Made by a program: the position numbers and the translations under genes. Of a stretch of 33,514 nt of DNA, positions 9,134 through 22,502 are shown one piece after another. The stretch lies in assembly GCA_013697735.1 (NCBI GenBank), contig JACCWH010000040.1:1-33514 (forward strand), read 5' to 3'. This DNA comes from Trueperaceae bacterium. Its GTDB lineage: Bacteria > Deinococcota > Deinococci > Deinococcales > Trueperaceae. Within the stretch, counting starts at the first letter, position 1; each line of letters starts with the position of its first letter. The notes below the pieces were generated by a model that ran no database searches, was not told the origin of the DNA, and saw nothing but the letters and a program-made list of their open reading frames with translations.

Positions 9134-9781
9134 ATGCGCGATGGTTTCGCCGAGATCGACACGACCGACGCTGAGCGCGTGCTCGAGCGCATGCTCGGGC
9201 CGATGGTGGGAGGTGTGGTGGGTGTGCTCCGCAGTGACGACCCGGCCCGGGCCATCGACCTCTCCGAAGCTGCGATCTCGGCCGGCCTCGCCTGCATCGA
9301 GATCACCTGGACCACGCCGGGCGCGGCTGGCGTCGTGCGAACGCTACGGGAGCGGCATCCCGGCCTCCTCATCGGGGCCGGGAGCGTCTTCGACGACGAC
9401 GACGTCGCCAGCGCCCGGGGTGCGGGGGCCGAGTTCGTGGTGAGCCCACACCTCTCCGAGCGTGTCTCTGCGGCGTGCGCAGCCCTCGCACTGCCGTACG
9501 TGCCCGGGGTTGCGACCGCGAGCGAGGTGGTCCGCGCGATGGAGACCGGTCACCAGCTCGTGAAGCTCTTCCCGATCGCGCAACTCGGTGGACCGGCCTT
9601 CGTGCGGGCGCTCCGCGGTCCCGTCCCGACGCTGCGCGCGATGGTGACGGGCGGCGTCGCTCCCGAGGACCTCGCCTCGTACAGAGAGGCCGGCGCCGCC
9701 CTCGTCGGCCTGGGATCGATCTTCGGGCGTGACGCCTCGGAGACGTACGACCGCGTCGCGACGCTCATGCGCGGTCGGTGA
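9134..9781 (+). CDS. eda: KDPG/KHG aldolase (class I, Entner-Doudoroff type)
   Basis: A 215-residue cytoplasmic class I aldolase. In the family it splits 2-keto-3-deoxy-6-phosphogluconate into pyruvate and glyceraldehyde-3-phosphate and/or 4-hydroxy-2-oxoglutarate into pyruvate and glyoxylate. The barrel strands carry the expected residues: Glu56 in CIEITW, the GAGSV turn, VSPH, PYVPGVATASE, and the Schiff-base Lys144 in QLVKLFP. GGVAPEDLASY forms the phosphate-binding end. The N-terminus is about 15 residues longer than in E. coli Eda. The ATG follows AAGGGGGG. No edd or gluconate kinase is nearby, so the true substrate is open; the sugar dehydrogenase downstream suggests sugar-acid metabolism. 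Confidence 0.9.
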   Translation: MRDGFAEIDTTDAERVLERMLGPMVGGVVGVLRSDDPARAIDLSEAAISAGLACIEITWTTPGAAGVVRTLRERHPGLLIGAGSVFDDDDVASARGAGAEFVVSPHLSERVSAACAALALPYVPGVATASEVVRAMETGHQLVKLFPIAQLGGPAFVRALRGPVPTLRAMVTGGVAPEDLASYREAGAALVGLGSIFGRDASETYDRVATLMRGR

Positions 9782-9890
9782 GTGCTCCCCAAACGCTCGT
9801 CACTGCGTGGACCGGAGGCTTCCGCTACCGTTCGTGATGACGCCCGGACGCTCGTCGTGCGCCAATCGACGGTGGCGGGCCGGTCGGTGA

Positions 9891-9926
9891 CTCTGGGGTC
9901 GTGCGCCCTCGGTGGCCGACCCAGAG
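9891..9926 (+). repeat. Inverted repeat ahead of the cytochrome c gene
   Basis: CTCTGGGGTCG (9891-9901) can pair with CGACCCAGAG (9917-9926), giving ten base pairs with one bulged G around a 15-base loop. It ends 18 bases before the cytochrome ATG at 9945 and contains the alternative GTG at 9912. It has no T-run, so a leader structure is more likely than an aldolase terminator. Confidence 0.4.
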
Positions 9927-14924: not shown

Positions 14925-17447
14925 ATGGAACGGTTGAAGGAGTACCGACGAAAGCGCGACTTCACGAGCACGGCCGAACCGACCGGCGGGGCCGTGCCGG
15001 ACGCCGGCGCTTCGCGCTTCGTGGTGCACAAGCACGTGGCTCGACGACTCCACTACGACCTGCGTCTCGAGGACGACGGCGTGCTCCGGAGTTGGGCCCT
15101 CCCGAAGGGGCCGAGCCTCGTGGTGGGCGAGCGGCGGCTCGCCGTGGAGGTCGAGGACCATCCCCTCGAGTACGCCGACTTCGAAGGGACCATCCCCGCT
15201 GGAGCGTACGGCGGCGGCACGGTCATGCTATGGGATCGGGGACGCTGGCGGCGCACGTCGCCGAGCGGGCGGTCGGACCGGATCGACCTCGAACTCGACG
15301 GGGTGAAGCTCCGGGGCGCCTGGACGCTCGCCCGGACGCGCGCCCGGCAGCGAGACGAATCGGATTGGCTGATGATCAAGCGGCGCGATGCCCACCCGCC
15401 GCTCGCGCCGGACGACCGCAGCGTCCTCACCGGCAGAACGATGGACGAGATCGCCGCGGGTGCCGACCGGCAGTCACTCCGTGGACCGGAGGACGAGCGG
15501 CGCGACGTCGCCGATCTCGTCGCGCACGGTGCGCGAGGTGGCGCCATGCCGGTCGACGTCGACCTCCAGCTCGCCCGGCTGCGCGACGCCGCTCCGGATG
15601 GCGACGCCTGGCTCCACGAGATCAAATTCGATGGCTATCGGATCATCGCCCGTATCGAGGACGGAGTCGCGACGCTGCGCACGCGCAACGCGCACGATTG
15701 GACGGCGCGTGCGCCCGAGATCGTGGCGGCGTTGCGTGGCATCGGCGCCTCGCACGCGCTCCTCGACGGCGAGGTGGTCGTCTTCGGCGAGCGTGGCGTC
15801 AGTTCCTTCGGTGCGCTGCAGGAGGCGCTGCGGACCGACGACACGGCCCGCCTGCGCTACCAGGTCTTCGACCTCCTCCATCTCGACGGCTTCGACCTCC
15901 GTAGCGTCCCGCTGGCACGGCGCAAGGAGGCGCTCGCGCGGCTGCTCACGACCTCGTCGGGGGAGATCGTTCGCTACACGGAGCACGTGCAAGGACAGGG
16001 TCCGGCGTTCTTCGCGCACGCCTGCGAGCTCGGCCTCGAGGGCATCATCTCCAAGGCGCGTGAGGCCCCCTACCGTAGCGGCCGGAGCGACCGCTGGCGC
16101 AAGGTGAAGTGCACGTGTCGCGACGCCTTCGTGGTCGGCGGCTTCACGCCGCCGTCGGGCTCCCGATCCGCGTTCGGCTCGCTGCTGCTCGGCACCGCCA
16201 GCGACGACGGCGAGATCACGTACGCCGGCCGGGTCGGGAGTGGCTTCGGCGATCGGCAGCTCGCGCACCTGCACGAGCGACTCCTCGAACTCGAGCGGCC
16301 TACGTCTCCCTTCGTCGAGCCCGTGCCCGACGCCCGCGGTGCCACGTGGGTGGAACCCGTACTCGTCGTCGAGGTGAGCTACACGGAGACCACGCGCGAC
16401 GGCCGTCTGCGTCATCCCGTGTTCCACGGGCTCCTGGAGTCGCTCCGTCCGTCTCCGGTCGACCGCACCGTCGCCGCCGCGCGAGGGGAGGGCCATGGCG
16501 CGACGCGGAAGCCCGCCCGGGGTAGCCGTCGCGCGGGCGAGACGGCCGAGGTCGCGGGCGTTCGGCTCACGAACGCGAACCGTGTGCTCTATCCGGAGCA
16601 GGGTGTGACGAAGCTCGCCGTGGCGGAGTACTACGAACGAGTGCAGGAGTACGTGCTGCCGGGGATGGTCGGGCGTCCGCTGGCCCTCGTTCGGTGTCCC
16701 CAGGGACACGAGGAGGGGTGCTTCTACCAGAAGCATCCCGGTGACGCGTTCGCGAAGGGCCTACCGCGTGTCGCGATCGAGGAGGGAGGGGATCGGCGCG
16801 AGTACGCCTACGTCGCGTCGCTCGCGGACATCATCGCCCTCGTGCAAGTCGGCGTCCTGGAGGTGCACGTGTGGGGGAGCCGCATCGAGGACGTCGAGCA
16901 CCCCGATCTGATGGTGATCGATCTCGATCCCGGCCCCGACGTCGCCTGGTCGCTGGTGCGATCGACGGCGCTCGAGCTCCGCGAGCGCCTCGCCGACCTC
17001 GACCTCGACGCCTTCCTCCGCACCACGGGCGGAAAGGGGCTCCACCTGGTCGTGCCGCTCCTTCCCGAGCACGATTGGAACGTCGTGAAGACGTTCGCAC
17101 GGGGTTTCTGCGAGCGGGCTGCGGCCGAGCACCCCGAACACCTCGTGACCACGGCGTCGAAGGCGAAGCGCGAGGGCCGAATCTACCTCGACTATCTCCG
17201 CAACGGTCGCGGAGCGACTGCGATCGCGTCGTACTCGACCCGAGCTCGACCCGGCGCGCCCGTCGCGGTGCCCGTGCGATGGGACGAGCTCGGCGAGTCG
17301 CTGCGCCCCGACCGATACGACGTCGGCAACGTCGCTCGACGGCTCGCCGCGCTGCGTGCCGATCCTTGGGTCGGCTTCGCCGACGCGGCGCGCGCGATCT
17401 CCCCCTCGGCGCTCGACGCGGTCGCGAAGCCGGCGAAACGGCGATGA
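14925..17447 (+). CDS. ligD: ATP-dependent DNA ligase LigD (phosphoesterase-ligase-polymerase)
   Basis: An 840-residue multidomain end-joining ligase in the order PE-LIG-POL. The 3'-phosphoesterase domain (about 1-160) keeps His37, His43 and Asp45 in VHKHVARRLHYDLRLE, and His79 in EDHPLEY. The ligase domain (about 190-500) has the adenylated Lys234 in EIKFDGYR, motif LLDGEVVVF and a C-terminal OB fold. After a basic linker, the primase-like polymerase domain (about 540-830) carries metal ligands Asp666 and Asp668 in VIDLDPG, then TTGGKGLH and YLRNGRGATAIASYS. All three activities look intact. The ATG follows GGGAG. The stop overlaps the zinc-finger gene in ATGA, starting a tightly coupled NHEJ operon. 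The domain order is that of Pseudomonas LigD, not the mycobacterial POL-PE-LIG. Confidence 0.97.
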   Translation: MERLKEYRRKRDFTSTAEPTGGAVPDAGASRFVVHKHVARRLHYDLRLEDDGVLRSWALPKGPSLVVGERRLAVEVEDHPLEYADFEGTIPAGAYGGGTVMLWDRGRWRRTSPSGRSDRIDLELDGVKLRGAWTLARTRARQRDESDWLMIKRRDAHPPLAPDDRSVLTGRTMDEIAAGADRQSLRGPEDERRDVADLVAHGARGGAMPVDVDLQLARLRDAAPDGDAWLHEIKFDGYRIIARIEDGVATLRTRNAHDWTARAPEIVAALRGIGASHALLDGEVVVFGERGVSSFGALQEALRTDDTARLRYQVFDLLHLDGFDLRSVPLARRKEALARLLTTSSGEIVRYTEHVQGQGPAFFAHACELGLEGIISKAREAPYRSGRSDRWRKVKCTCRDAFVVGGFTPPSGSRSAFGSLLLGTASDDGEITYAGRVGSGFGDRQLAHLHERLLELERPTSPFVEPVPDARGATWVEPVLVVEVSYTETTRDGRLRHPVFHGLLESLRPSPVDRTVAAARGEGHGATRKPARGSRRAGETAEVAGVRLTNANRVLYPEQGVTKLAVAEYYERVQEYVLPGMVGRPLALVRCPQGHEEGCFYQKHPGDAFAKGLPRVAIEEGGDRREYAYVASLADIIALVQVGVLEVHVWGSRIEDVEHPDLMVIDLDPGPDVAWSLVRSTALELRERLADLDLDAFLRTTGGKGLHLVVPLLPEHDWNVVKTFARGFCERAAAEHPEHLVTTASKAKREGRIYLDYLRNGRGATAIASYSTRARPGAPVAVPVRWDELGESLRPDRYDVGNVARRLAALRADPWVGFADAARAISPSALDAVAKPAKRR

Positions 17448-17653
17448 CGGGACCGGAGGGACGCGCGACACGCTGGTGGCTCGAGGGCGGGGACGAGCAG
17501 TGTGACACGTGTCTCGCCTTCCACCACGTCGAGATGGAGGTGCGCTGCGAGGCCTGCGACGGTCCCTACTGTCGCTCGTGCATCGCCGAGGTGCGTCGGG
17601 AACGTCTGCTGCTGCTGTGCGCCTCGTGCGCAGCCGACGAGGCGGACTCCTGA
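17444..17653 (+). CDS. Small Cys-rich zinc-finger-like protein in the NHEJ operon
   Basis: A 69-residue protein with four Cys-containing pairs: CDTC, CEAC, CRSC and CASC, plus an adjacent His-His in AFHHVEM. The spacing (CX2C-X14-CX2C-X4-CX2C-X14-CX2C) resembles a B-box or cross-brace zinc finger binding two zinc ions. The tail is acidic and there is no signal or membrane segment. Its ATG overlaps the ligD stop by four bases (ATGA) and its TGA overlaps the ku1 ATG by one base (TGATG), so the frame is locked between two real genes and probably translated by coupling. A role as an accessory or regulator of end joining, or simply a DNA- or protein-binding finger, is inferred from position only. 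Confidence 0.75.
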   Translation: MTGPEGRATRWWLEGGDEQCDTCLAFHHVEMEVRCEACDGPYCRSCIAEVRRERLLLLCASCAADEADS

Positions 17654-18432
17654 TGGCGGCGAGGGCGATGTGGAAAGGGATCGTCACGTTCGGAGACGTG
17701 CGCGTACCGGTGAAGCTCTACGCCGCGATCGAGGACCGGACGTTGCGCTTCCGACTCCTCGATCGCGCCACGAAGACACCGGTCGTGCAGTCGCTCGTGC
17801 AGAGCGACACCGACTCGGTCGTCCCATACGAGGCCACCCGTCGCGGCTTCGTGACCGACGAGCAGGAGGTGGTCGTACTCGACCCCGACGAGCTCGCGAG
17901 CCTCGAGCCGGACGGCTCCCGCACGATCGAGGTGGTGCGCTTCGTACCGCCCGAGGCCATCGACCACCGGCTCTACGATCGTCCGTACTACCTCGGTCCG
18001 GACGGAGGCGCCGGGCCGTACGCGGCGCTCGCTCGAGCGCTCGCCAGGAGCGAGCGGGAGGGGGTGGCTCGCTGGGCGATGCGAAAGAAGGAGTACGTCG
18101 GTGCGCTCCGACTGCATCGCGGCTACCCGATGCTCGTCACGCTTCGGCATGCCGAAGAGGTGGTGAGCCTCGAACGGGTCGAGCGCCCGAAGGGGAAGCC
18201 GCTCGACGACGCGCAACTCGCGATGGCGCGGCAACTCGTGGGGATGCTCGAGGCGCCATTCGAGCCGACGTCGTACCGCGACGAGTATCGTGGGCGCGTC
18301 GCCGAACTGATCGAGGCCAAGGTTCGCGGGCAGACGCCGACGGCACCGAAGCCGCGTCCGAGGCCCAAAGCGCGGGATCTCGACGGCGCGCTCCGGGCTA
18401 GCCTGCGCTCGGCGGGGGACCACCGTGCCTGA
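17653..18432 (+). CDS. ku: Ku protein 1 (NHEJ end-binding)
   Basis: A 259-residue bacterial Ku, forming part of a ring that threads onto broken DNA ends and recruits LigD. The start is typical (ARAMWKGIVTFGDVRVPVKLY), followed by the beta-barrel core with YEATRRGFV, VVLDPDEL, FVPPEAIDHRLYDRPYYL and the bridge-forming region around WAMRKKEYVGAL. The C-terminus is short and basic/proline-rich (PKPRPRPKARDL), the region that in bacterial Ku contacts LigD and DNA. The first residues of the product begin at ATG 17653, sharing one base with the zinc-finger stop. The gene ends eight bases inside ku2. Core features are complete. Confidence 0.95.
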   Translation: MAARAMWKGIVTFGDVRVPVKLYAAIEDRTLRFRLLDRATKTPVVQSLVQSDTDSVVPYEATRRGFVTDEQEVVVLDPDELASLEPDGSRTIEVVRFVPPEAIDHRLYDRPYYLGPDGGAGPYAALARALARSEREGVARWAMRKKEYVGALRLHRGYPMLVTLRHAEEVVSLERVERPKGKPLDDAQLAMARQLVGMLEAPFEPTSYRDEYRGRVAELIEAKVRGQTPTAPKPRPRPKARDLDGALRASLRSAGDHRA

Positions 18433-19426
18433 AGCGGCGGGTCGCGAGGAAGCCGACGCCCGTCGCGCGCGACCGCTCTGGTCGGGGAACGTCGCGTTCG
18501 GGCTCGTGACGCTACCCGTGGAGCTCTTCCCGGCGAACCGCACCGCGCGCGTCTCGTTGCGGATGGTCGACGAGGCGGGGGCACCACTCTCGCGGCGCTA
18601 CTTCGACGCCGACGGTAAGGCCCTCGAGGACGACGACATCGTGCGCGGCTTCGCGCTCGCCGACGGCGAAGGGTTCGTGCTCGTGGAGGACGAGGAACTC
18701 GAGGCGTTGGCGCCGGAGCGATCGCGCGAAATCGATCTCTCGAGGTTCGTCGACCTCGACGAGATCGACCCGGCCTACTTCGATCGCGGGTACTTCCTCG
18801 CGCCCGATCGCGGCGCGCTCAAGGCGTATCGCCTGCTGGCGAGGACCATGGAGGAGACCGGTAGGGCGGGCATCGCGACCTTCGTGATGCGCGACAAGGA
18901 GTACCTCGTGGCGATCATCGCCGACGACGGCATCCTTCGGGCACAGACGCTGCGCTTCCATGACGAACTCCGCACGCCCGACGACGTCGGTCTCCCCGAC
19001 CTCGAGACGCTCGACGCCGGAGACGAGGAGGTCGCTGCCATCGAGCGTGCCATCGTGGCTGCCGCTGCAGAGGAACTCGACGAGTCGCTCCTGCGCGATC
19101 GAGCATCCGCGCGCCTCCTGGCACTCGTGCAGGAGAAGCTCGGGGCACGCGATGACGTCGTGAAGCTATCACCCGAGGCTGCGGAGGCGCCCGGTGCAGC
19201 GGCCGAGGTCGACCTCATGCAGGTGCTGAAGGAGCGACTCGCGCGTGACGACGAGGCGACGGGGCCCTCCGACGCATCCGCGCCCGGTACGGATCGTCAC
19301 GACCTCCAGGTGATGACGAAGGCGGCGCTGTACCGACGCGCGCAAGAGCTCGAGGTACCAGGGAGAAGCAGCATGACGAAGGAGGAGCTCGTGGCAGCGC
19401 TCGAGCGGACGAGCGAGGGAGGGTGA
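18425..19426 (+). CDS. ku: Ku protein 2 with SAP-like C-terminal tail
   Basis: A 333-residue second Ku paralogue starting at GTG 18425 inside the end of ku1, behind GGGGGA. It has its own Ku core (LWSGNVAFGLVTLPVELF, YFDADGK, VRGFALADGEGFVLVED, YFLAPD, FVMRDKEYLVAI), clearly diverged from ku1 rather than a recent copy. After an acidic stretch (DDEATGPSDASAPGTD), the last 40 residues (about 293-330) form a SAP/Rho-N-like helix pair: MTKAALYRRAQELEVPGRS, then MTKEELVAALER. Such a tail is known in longer bacterial Ku proteins and is expected to bind DNA. With ku1 it may form a heterodimer instead of the usual homodimer. Confidence 0.95.
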   Translation: MPEAAGREEADARRARPLWSGNVAFGLVTLPVELFPANRTARVSLRMVDEAGAPLSRRYFDADGKALEDDDIVRGFALADGEGFVLVEDEELEALAPERSREIDLSRFVDLDEIDPAYFDRGYFLAPDRGALKAYRLLARTMEETGRAGIATFVMRDKEYLVAIIADDGILRAQTLRFHDELRTPDDVGLPDLETLDAGDEEVAAIERAIVAAAAEELDESLLRDRASARLLALVQEKLGARDDVVKLSPEAAEAPGAAAEVDLMQVLKERLARDDEATGPSDASAPGTDRHDLQVMTKAALYRRAQELEVPGRSSMTKEELVAALERTSEGG

Positions 19427-21739: not shown

Positions 21740-22081
21740 TCAGAGCTTGCGGGCCAGGAAGAGTCCGAGCGCGAAGCCGACGCCCATCGTGATGAGCGCC
21801 GATGCGACCGGCTTCTCCTCGACCTGATCCTTCACGCTCTCGAATACGTCGTGACCCCGTTCCATGACCACGTCCGATGCGTCGTGCATCACGGAGCGCA
21901 TGCGATCGGTGCCCTCTTCGAGAACACCAGCGGCGGCGCCCTTCATGCTCTCCACCGCGTCGCTGGTCACGTGGCGTGCTGCGCTCCCGCCTCGGCGAGT
22001 GATTTGACGTAGGTCGCCTTGTAGTCGATCGAGATCCTTCTTCAGGCCGGCGATGTCTCGGCGTACTTCTTTCGTCGTCAT
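21740..22081 (-). CDS. DUF883/YqjD-ElaB-like membrane-anchored helical protein
   Basis: A 113-residue protein. A long amphipathic helix or coiled coil (KEVRRDIAGLKKDLDRLQGDL, then Ala/Asp/Val-rich helix to about residue 88) ends in a short C-terminal membrane segment, SALITMGVGFALGLFLA, with a basic tail RKL. This is the plan of the ElaB/YqjD/DUF883 group, inner-membrane tail-anchored proteins linked in E. coli to ribosome binding in stationary phase and to stress. EEKPVASALITMGVGFALG matches the family end. The ATG at 22081 follows GAGGAG. The second, related gene lies 70 bases upstream on the same strand, so the two are probably an operon. Confidence 0.82.
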   Translation of the reverse strand: MTTKEVRRDIAGLKKDLDRLQGDLRQITRRGGSAARHVTSDAVESMKGAAAGVLEEGTDRMRSVMHDASDVVMERGHDVFESVKDQVEEKPVASALITMGVGFALGLFLARKL

Positions 22082-22151: not shown

Positions 22152-22502
22152 TCAGCGTCGGCTCGCGAGCACCCACCCTACGAGGACACCGATGCCGAGC
22201 GCGGTGAGGGTCGAGGTCATCGGCTTCGATTCGATCTGCTCCCTGACCGTTCCCGCCACCTCACGAGTCTTGGCCTCGACCGCGTCCGAAGCGTCGTGCA
22301 ACGTCGACGCGGCACGGCTCGCACCCTCTTCGATTGCATCCTTCGCCTTCGACGTCGCGTGCGAGGCAGCCTCGGAAGCGTGGGCTGCGGCGCCCTTGGC
22401 TGCCTCTCCACCCTTTTCGGCGGCGCGGCGCATCTCTTCCTTGGCCCGGTCGGCGTCGTTCATGGCCTGTCCGGCCTTCTTTTCGTAATCGCGTGTGGAC
22501 AT
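22152..22502 (-). CDS. DUF883-like protein with LEA-like Ala/Lys/Glu helix
   Basis: A 116-residue paralogue of the next gene in the operon. The first 60 residues (AADRAKEE-type Ala/Lys/Glu repeats such as EEMRRAAEKGGEAAKGAA and SHATSKAKDAIEEGAS) resemble late-embryogenesis-abundant or apolipoprotein-like amphipathic helix. A shared module follows, STLHDASDAVEAKTREVAG, paralleling SVMHDASDVVMERG in the partner. A C-terminal membrane segment (LTALGIGVLVGWVLA) and SRR tail complete it. It is tail-anchored, probably in the cytoplasmic membrane. The ATG at 22502 follows GGAGGAGACATC. A possible -10, TACCGT, is near 22600. A desiccation or stress role is inferred. Confidence 0.82.
   Translation of the reverse strand: MSTRDYEKKAGQAMNDADRAKEEMRRAAEKGGEAAKGAAAHASEAASHATSKAKDAIEEGASRAASTLHDASDAVEAKTREVAGTVREQIESKPMTSTLTALGIGVLVGWVLASRR

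Follow-up and report, generated by a model that had tools for sequence, protein, structure and literature searches.

The window, a stretch of 33,514 nucleotides from a draft genome of Trueperaceae (Deinococcota), carries ligD, a small zinc-finger gene, ku1, and ku2 in succession. Their coordinates and junctions are as follows.

14925 to 17447, + strand: ligD, 840 aa, with LigD_N phosphoesterase, ligase, and Prim-Pol (LigD_Prim-Pol) domains by Pfam
17444 to 17447, + strand: ATGA stop/start overlap of ligD and the zinc-finger gene, 4 bases
17444 to 17653, + strand: small zinc-finger gene, 69 aa; start ATG at 17444, stop TGA at 17651-17653
17474 to 17482, + strand: WWL motif, N-terminal to the finger; second Trp present in 42 of 43 homologues
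17501, 17510, 17546, 17555, 17570, 17579, 17618, and 17627, + strand: first bases of the codons for the ligand cysteines of the zinc-finger gene
17651 to 17655, + strand: TGATG overlap, in which the zinc-finger stop and the ku1 ATG (17653) share 1 base
17653 to 18432, + strand: ku1, 259 aa, Ku core (Pfam Ku, E=3e-34), in the supported Ku1 clade
18425 to 19426, + strand: ku2, 333 aa, Ku core, GTG start, 8-base overlap with ku1, in the Ku2 clade

These tight overlaps, including the 8 bases between ku1 and ku2, make the four genes one closely packed run, an operon that unites ku with ligD and is thus of the bacterial NHEJ type. The ku2 product ends in a Rho_N-like domain that scores slightly under the Pfam cutoff. 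The zinc-finger gene encodes MTGPEGRATRWWLEGGDEQCDTCLAFHHVEMEVRCEACDGPYCRSCIAEVRRERLLLLCASCAADEADS (69 aa), with four CxxC pairs: CDTC, CEAC, CRSC, and CASC. The initial annotation had described a 69-residue frame with these four pairs, a 4-base overlap with ligD, and a 1-base overlap with ku1; all of these details were confirmed, and the frame is intact. Elsewhere in the window, two adjacent and similar small proteins are encoded on the - strand (21740-22081 and 22152-22502); they have a C-terminal hydrophobic segment and look DUF883/YqjD-like by eye.

Occurrence of the gene at tandem-Ku loci

Scanning genome contigs with the 69-aa protein as a single sequence gave no match, as the gene is too short and divergent for such a search; the family was exposed instead by scanning with an alignment of its neighbor, ku1. 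A scan of genome contigs with a ku1 alignment gave 80 ku1 loci, 77 of them assessable and three cut by contig ends. A profile built from only the four Trueperaceae zinc-finger proteins was then run against the open reading frames of these loci. Outside Trueperaceae, the matches directly before ku1 have E-values of about 1e-19 to 1e-6, with one other match at E=0.002. The zinc-finger gene lies immediately upstream of ku1 in 67 of the 77 assessable loci, a count that includes one locus (L099) recognized by its Cys pattern. These loci come from at least seven phyla: Deinococcota, Pseudomonadota, Acidobacteriota, Gemmatimonadota, Planctomycetota, Myxococcota, and Thermodesulfobacteriota. The order zinc finger-ku1-ku2 holds in all loci with sufficient sequence (L097 is cut). 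On plasmids, tblastn with the finger gave only weak matches, in UvrA genes, unannotated DNA, or a Klebsiella hypothetical protein, or none at all; the annotation of Burkholderia, Streptomyces, Kitasatospora, and Variovorax plasmid Ku loci shows no such gene directly before ku.

Within the window's own order, 111 genomes were sampled, and the number is the same at class and phylum rank. Profile search located relatives in three other genomes of the window's family, all outside the window's genus. All three place the gene between ligD and ku1 with a TGATG junction, and two have a ligD overlap of the same kind (ATGA or GTGA). Ku is encoded in 6 of the 111 Deinococcota genomes and the zinc-finger gene in 4 of those 6; it is absent from all 105 genomes without Ku. 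In the remaining Ku-bearing pair (G082 and G083), the zinc-finger gene is missing and ligD directly abuts ku1. Ku1-type Ku occurs in this sample only in those 6 genomes, which all belong to the window's family; NHEJ thus looks sporadic in the phylum. One Trueperaceae relative (G086, locus L004; G086:C301, about 9690-9900) has the ATG at its ligD overlap out of frame by one base, with no in-frame ATG, GTG, or TTG near the ligD stop; its finger core is intact, which suggests a frameshift, an assembly error, or an unusual start.

Because the 80 loci had been picked by ku1 similarity, genomes were also sampled independently of that choice. Among 119 genomes of an Acidobacteriota order, Ku is found in 21 and the finger in 16. 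The latter are exactly the 16 genomes with tandem ku1-ku2, and in each the finger is adjacent, on the same contig; two 16-genome sets would coincide exactly in 119 genomes with a chance of 4e-20, relatedness ignored. The finger is absent from all 5 genomes of this sample with only non-tandem or fragmentary Ku and from all 98 without Ku. Many of the finger-ku1-ku2 genomes (G116, G450, G492, and others) carry a third, unlinked Ku without a finger. Another Acidobacteriota locus (L160; G520:C485, about 2012-2128) holds an apparently degenerate second finger copy.

In the order of Billgrantia saliphila (295 genomes), 16 genomes have Ku, and three of these retain a tandem ku1-ku2 operon, whole or in remnants; among the matches listed, the finger occurs in 2 of these three, one of them a decaying operon, and in 0 of 13 single-Ku genomes. 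Likewise, 24 of 274 Gammaproteobacteria have Ku, and among the matches listed the finger is found only in the tandem-Ku reference. Another gammaproteobacterial tandem-Ku locus (G304) is without it. Each genome with the finger has one copy, beside ku1, and genomes whose ku1 is without a finger have no copy elsewhere, bar one weak embedded match. That match (L111; G129:C34, Schlegelella) is a CxxC stretch inside a predicted transporter-histidine kinase with a frame of more than 1000 aa; we regard it, like a match in G800 with two internal stops and no Ku, as unrelated or due to chance.

The two Ku proteins are distinct lineages. A tree of 126 Ku rows built with FastTree recovers Ku1 as one supported group and Ku2 as another (local support 99 and 100), and the tandem paralogues of the window fall one in each. 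Loci with the finger are spread across the whole Ku1 group and confined to it, with some 14 state changes; a single early acquisition followed by repeated loss fits best, gain and loss being inseparable from the tree alone. About a dozen ku1-ku2 loci have no finger and an apparently intact ku1 (L040, L047, L095, G082, G083, G304, G759, and others); the finger is thus not essential everywhere. A comparison of Ku1 residues between loci with and without the finger gave no clear signature, only four weak columns confounded by kinship. In G543, the NHEJ operon is decaying (L163; G543:C15:339500-346000): its ligD and ku1 are in fragments, and one ligand Cys is gone from the finger. Joint decay of finger, ligD, and ku1 is what would be expected if their functions are tied. 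Together, these distributions strongly support linkage of the zinc-finger gene to NHEJ.

Constraint, junctions, and predicted fold

An alignment of 43 diverse members shows no variation at any of the eight Cys or at the Asp that follows the fourth one, the Cys invariance being somewhat inflated because membership was partly chosen by a profile that contains Cys. Besides the Cys, the conserved residues are WW, G, E, and Asp. We propose as a family signature WW[L/M], four CxxC pairs, and an Asp after the fourth Cys, in a gene directly upstream of ku1; the window protein has all of these. Across 18 copies from Halomonadaceae and Microbulbifer, pN/pS is 0.22 and differences by codon position number 1126/848/2918, a pattern indicating that the gene is translated into a constrained protein. 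Most members are acidic (40 of 43; median net charge -6, pI 4.7), which argues for a protein partner rather than a DNA partner.

The junction with ku1 raises the possibility of a regulator. In that case a protein or leader that responds to zinc or redox would, by its translation, gate ku1 (and ku2) and match Ku output to zinc or oxidative state. Cys-rich domains are able to sense redox or metal. In 45 of 67 loci the stop of the finger overlaps the start of ku1, by 1 (34 loci), 4, or 11 bases, and spacing is close in most of the others. However, the spacing is not fixed; two loci overlap by 31-61 bases, and others have gaps of more than 100 bases. Furthermore, the protein is acidic, not basic, and purifying selection together with the conserved non-Cys residues marks a conserved protein, beyond a coupling frame. 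We therefore hold such a regulator to be unlikely, though it is the rival that best withstands these data.

Another reading makes LigD the partner: the protein would recruit or stimulate the ligase or polymerase, and would stand beside ku1 only through the usual ligD-zinc finger-ku1 order. That order is found in the window and in 38 of the 67 loci, where ligD is directly upstream. In 25 others, however, no ligD lies in the available flank, and in 4 it is downstream or on the other strand; the junction with ku1 persists in these loci, so that the constant partner is ku1. In addition, LigD beside a single Ku is never accompanied by the finger in the sampled loci. A LigD partner is accordingly an improbable account. 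These results also refine what the initial annotation had proposed. Its suggestion of an accessory NHEJ factor depended on homologues in other ligD-ku loci and on conserved Cys; both are found, in 67 of 77 ku1 loci for the former, and an accessory factor is now the best reading. The tie that it drew to both LigD and Ku stands for ku1 of the tandem ku1-ku2 pair, and does not extend to ligD. Of its idea of coupled translation, the stop-start overlaps are real; purifying selection on the protein speaks against a mere coupling device.

The fold is predicted to be a FYVE/RING-like binuclear (cross-brace) double-zinc domain, preceded by the short N-terminal WWL segment. An AlphaFold2 model of the protein has a mean pLDDT of 85, and its best Foldseek matches are FYVE domains (probability 0.99-1.00, TM about 0.55-0.59), with E-values of at least 0.03 that are expected for so small a domain. 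The domain probably holds two zinc ions. Known families come close without including it. The window protein scores 13.8 bits for FYVE_2 against a cutoff of 27.2 and reaches neither the FYVE nor the FYVE_2 cutoff of Pfam; other members' best Pfam E-values are 1e-4 (FYVE_2) and 3e-4 (FYVE). The ANCHR-like B-box (PF22586) gives the window protein 20.6 bits, under a 27-bit cutoff. In NCBIfam the window protein has no match, and no family matches more than 2 of the 43 members. As judged from these profile comparisons, no Pfam or NCBIfam model describes the family.

The closest folds are FYVE, and a profile search of PDB sequences ranks a RING chain first; a FYVE domain that targets membranes or phosphoinositides, or a ubiquitin ligase of the RING type, is nonetheless very improbable. 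The lipid motif R(R/K)HHCR is absent from the alignment of 43 members, and the gene is linked to Ku. We know of no PI3P or ubiquitin context in these bacteria. We reject membership in the FYVE, B-box, or RING families on the curated cutoffs and the missing lipid motif; with the PI3P motif gone, the fold suggests a protein-binding scaffold. Finally, open frames are plentiful in GC-rich DNA, but a chance frame can be dismissed: homologues stand at the same position in at least seven phyla with codon-position bias and low pN/pS, and sequence comparison confirms a gene far beyond chance, with the same gene, place, and TGATG in three other Trueperaceae and the Cys invariant in 43 members.

Proposed role and relation to known systems

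We consider that, with fair probability, the gene encodes a small subunit or adaptor dedicated to an end-joining system with two Ku proteins (Ku1-Ku2). Ku1 is the likely partner, and the role would lie in assembly, stability, or bridging of a putative Ku1-Ku2 complex. The zinc-finger protein would be translated just before Ku1 through the stop-start overlap, and synthesis directly ahead of Ku1 would allow contact with nascent Ku1. Its most likely binding target is Ku1, or a putative Ku1-Ku2 dimer; once bound, it may help to assemble or stabilize the complex at DNA ends, or bridge it to LigD. A broader claim, to which we give an even chance, is that a large multi-phylum branch of bacteria has a third conserved core NHEJ component, namely a FYVE-like zinc protein that belongs as an integral subunit to a heteromeric machine of Ku1 and Ku2.

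If true, the two-Ku branch has an accessory factor that went unnoticed, in a pathway usually reconstituted as Ku plus LigD, and this branch of bacterial NHEJ is more complex than the supposed two-protein pathway. Reconstitution would change, and genome editing in Halomonas-type, Marinobacter, or Acidobacteriota hosts is one example of where this would count. The accessory factors of eukaryotic Ku70/80 would also gain a simple bacterial counterpart for comparison. The set of three proteins (zinc finger, Ku1, and Ku2) is testable and can be obtained from cultured species.

Within the open-access literature, we conclude that the family is undescribed. According to the initial annotation, no small cross-brace finger is known as part of bacterial NHEJ, and the open-access sources searched likewise do not mention one; description elsewhere is possible. 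The word zinc does not occur in a survey of nearly 6,000 genomes with an analysis of ku-ligD neighborhoods (PMC7719229), and a 2025 paper on Ku evolution names zinc fingers only where it deals with amoebal Ku70 and in the reference list (PMC11936186).

Comparison with known systems places the protein as follows. FYVE domains (EEA1, Vps27, RUFY1, and CARP2) share its eight-Cys spacing, the Trp before the first Cys, and the predicted fold; they carry R(R/K)HHCR, whereas the family consists of stand-alone bacterial proteins of 60-90 aa, without that motif, in a Ku operon. B-box (including the ANCHR-like B-box), RING, and PHD fingers give weak Pfam and PDB profile matches to the family, but none reaches a curated cutoff for the window protein, and its context is neither E3 nor histone. 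Among multi-Ku systems, Sinorhizobium and Rhizobium also have tandem ku near ligD (R. etli p42e), yet rhizobial tandem Ku falls outside the Ku1 clade and has no zinc-finger gene annotated upstream (R. etli p42e). The usual description of bacterial NHEJ, found for example in PMC3656841 and PMC12784961, has two proteins, Ku and LigD. The window shares with that system a common operon, a full three-domain LigD, and Ku core proteins; it differs by a second Ku paralogue and a conserved zinc protein.
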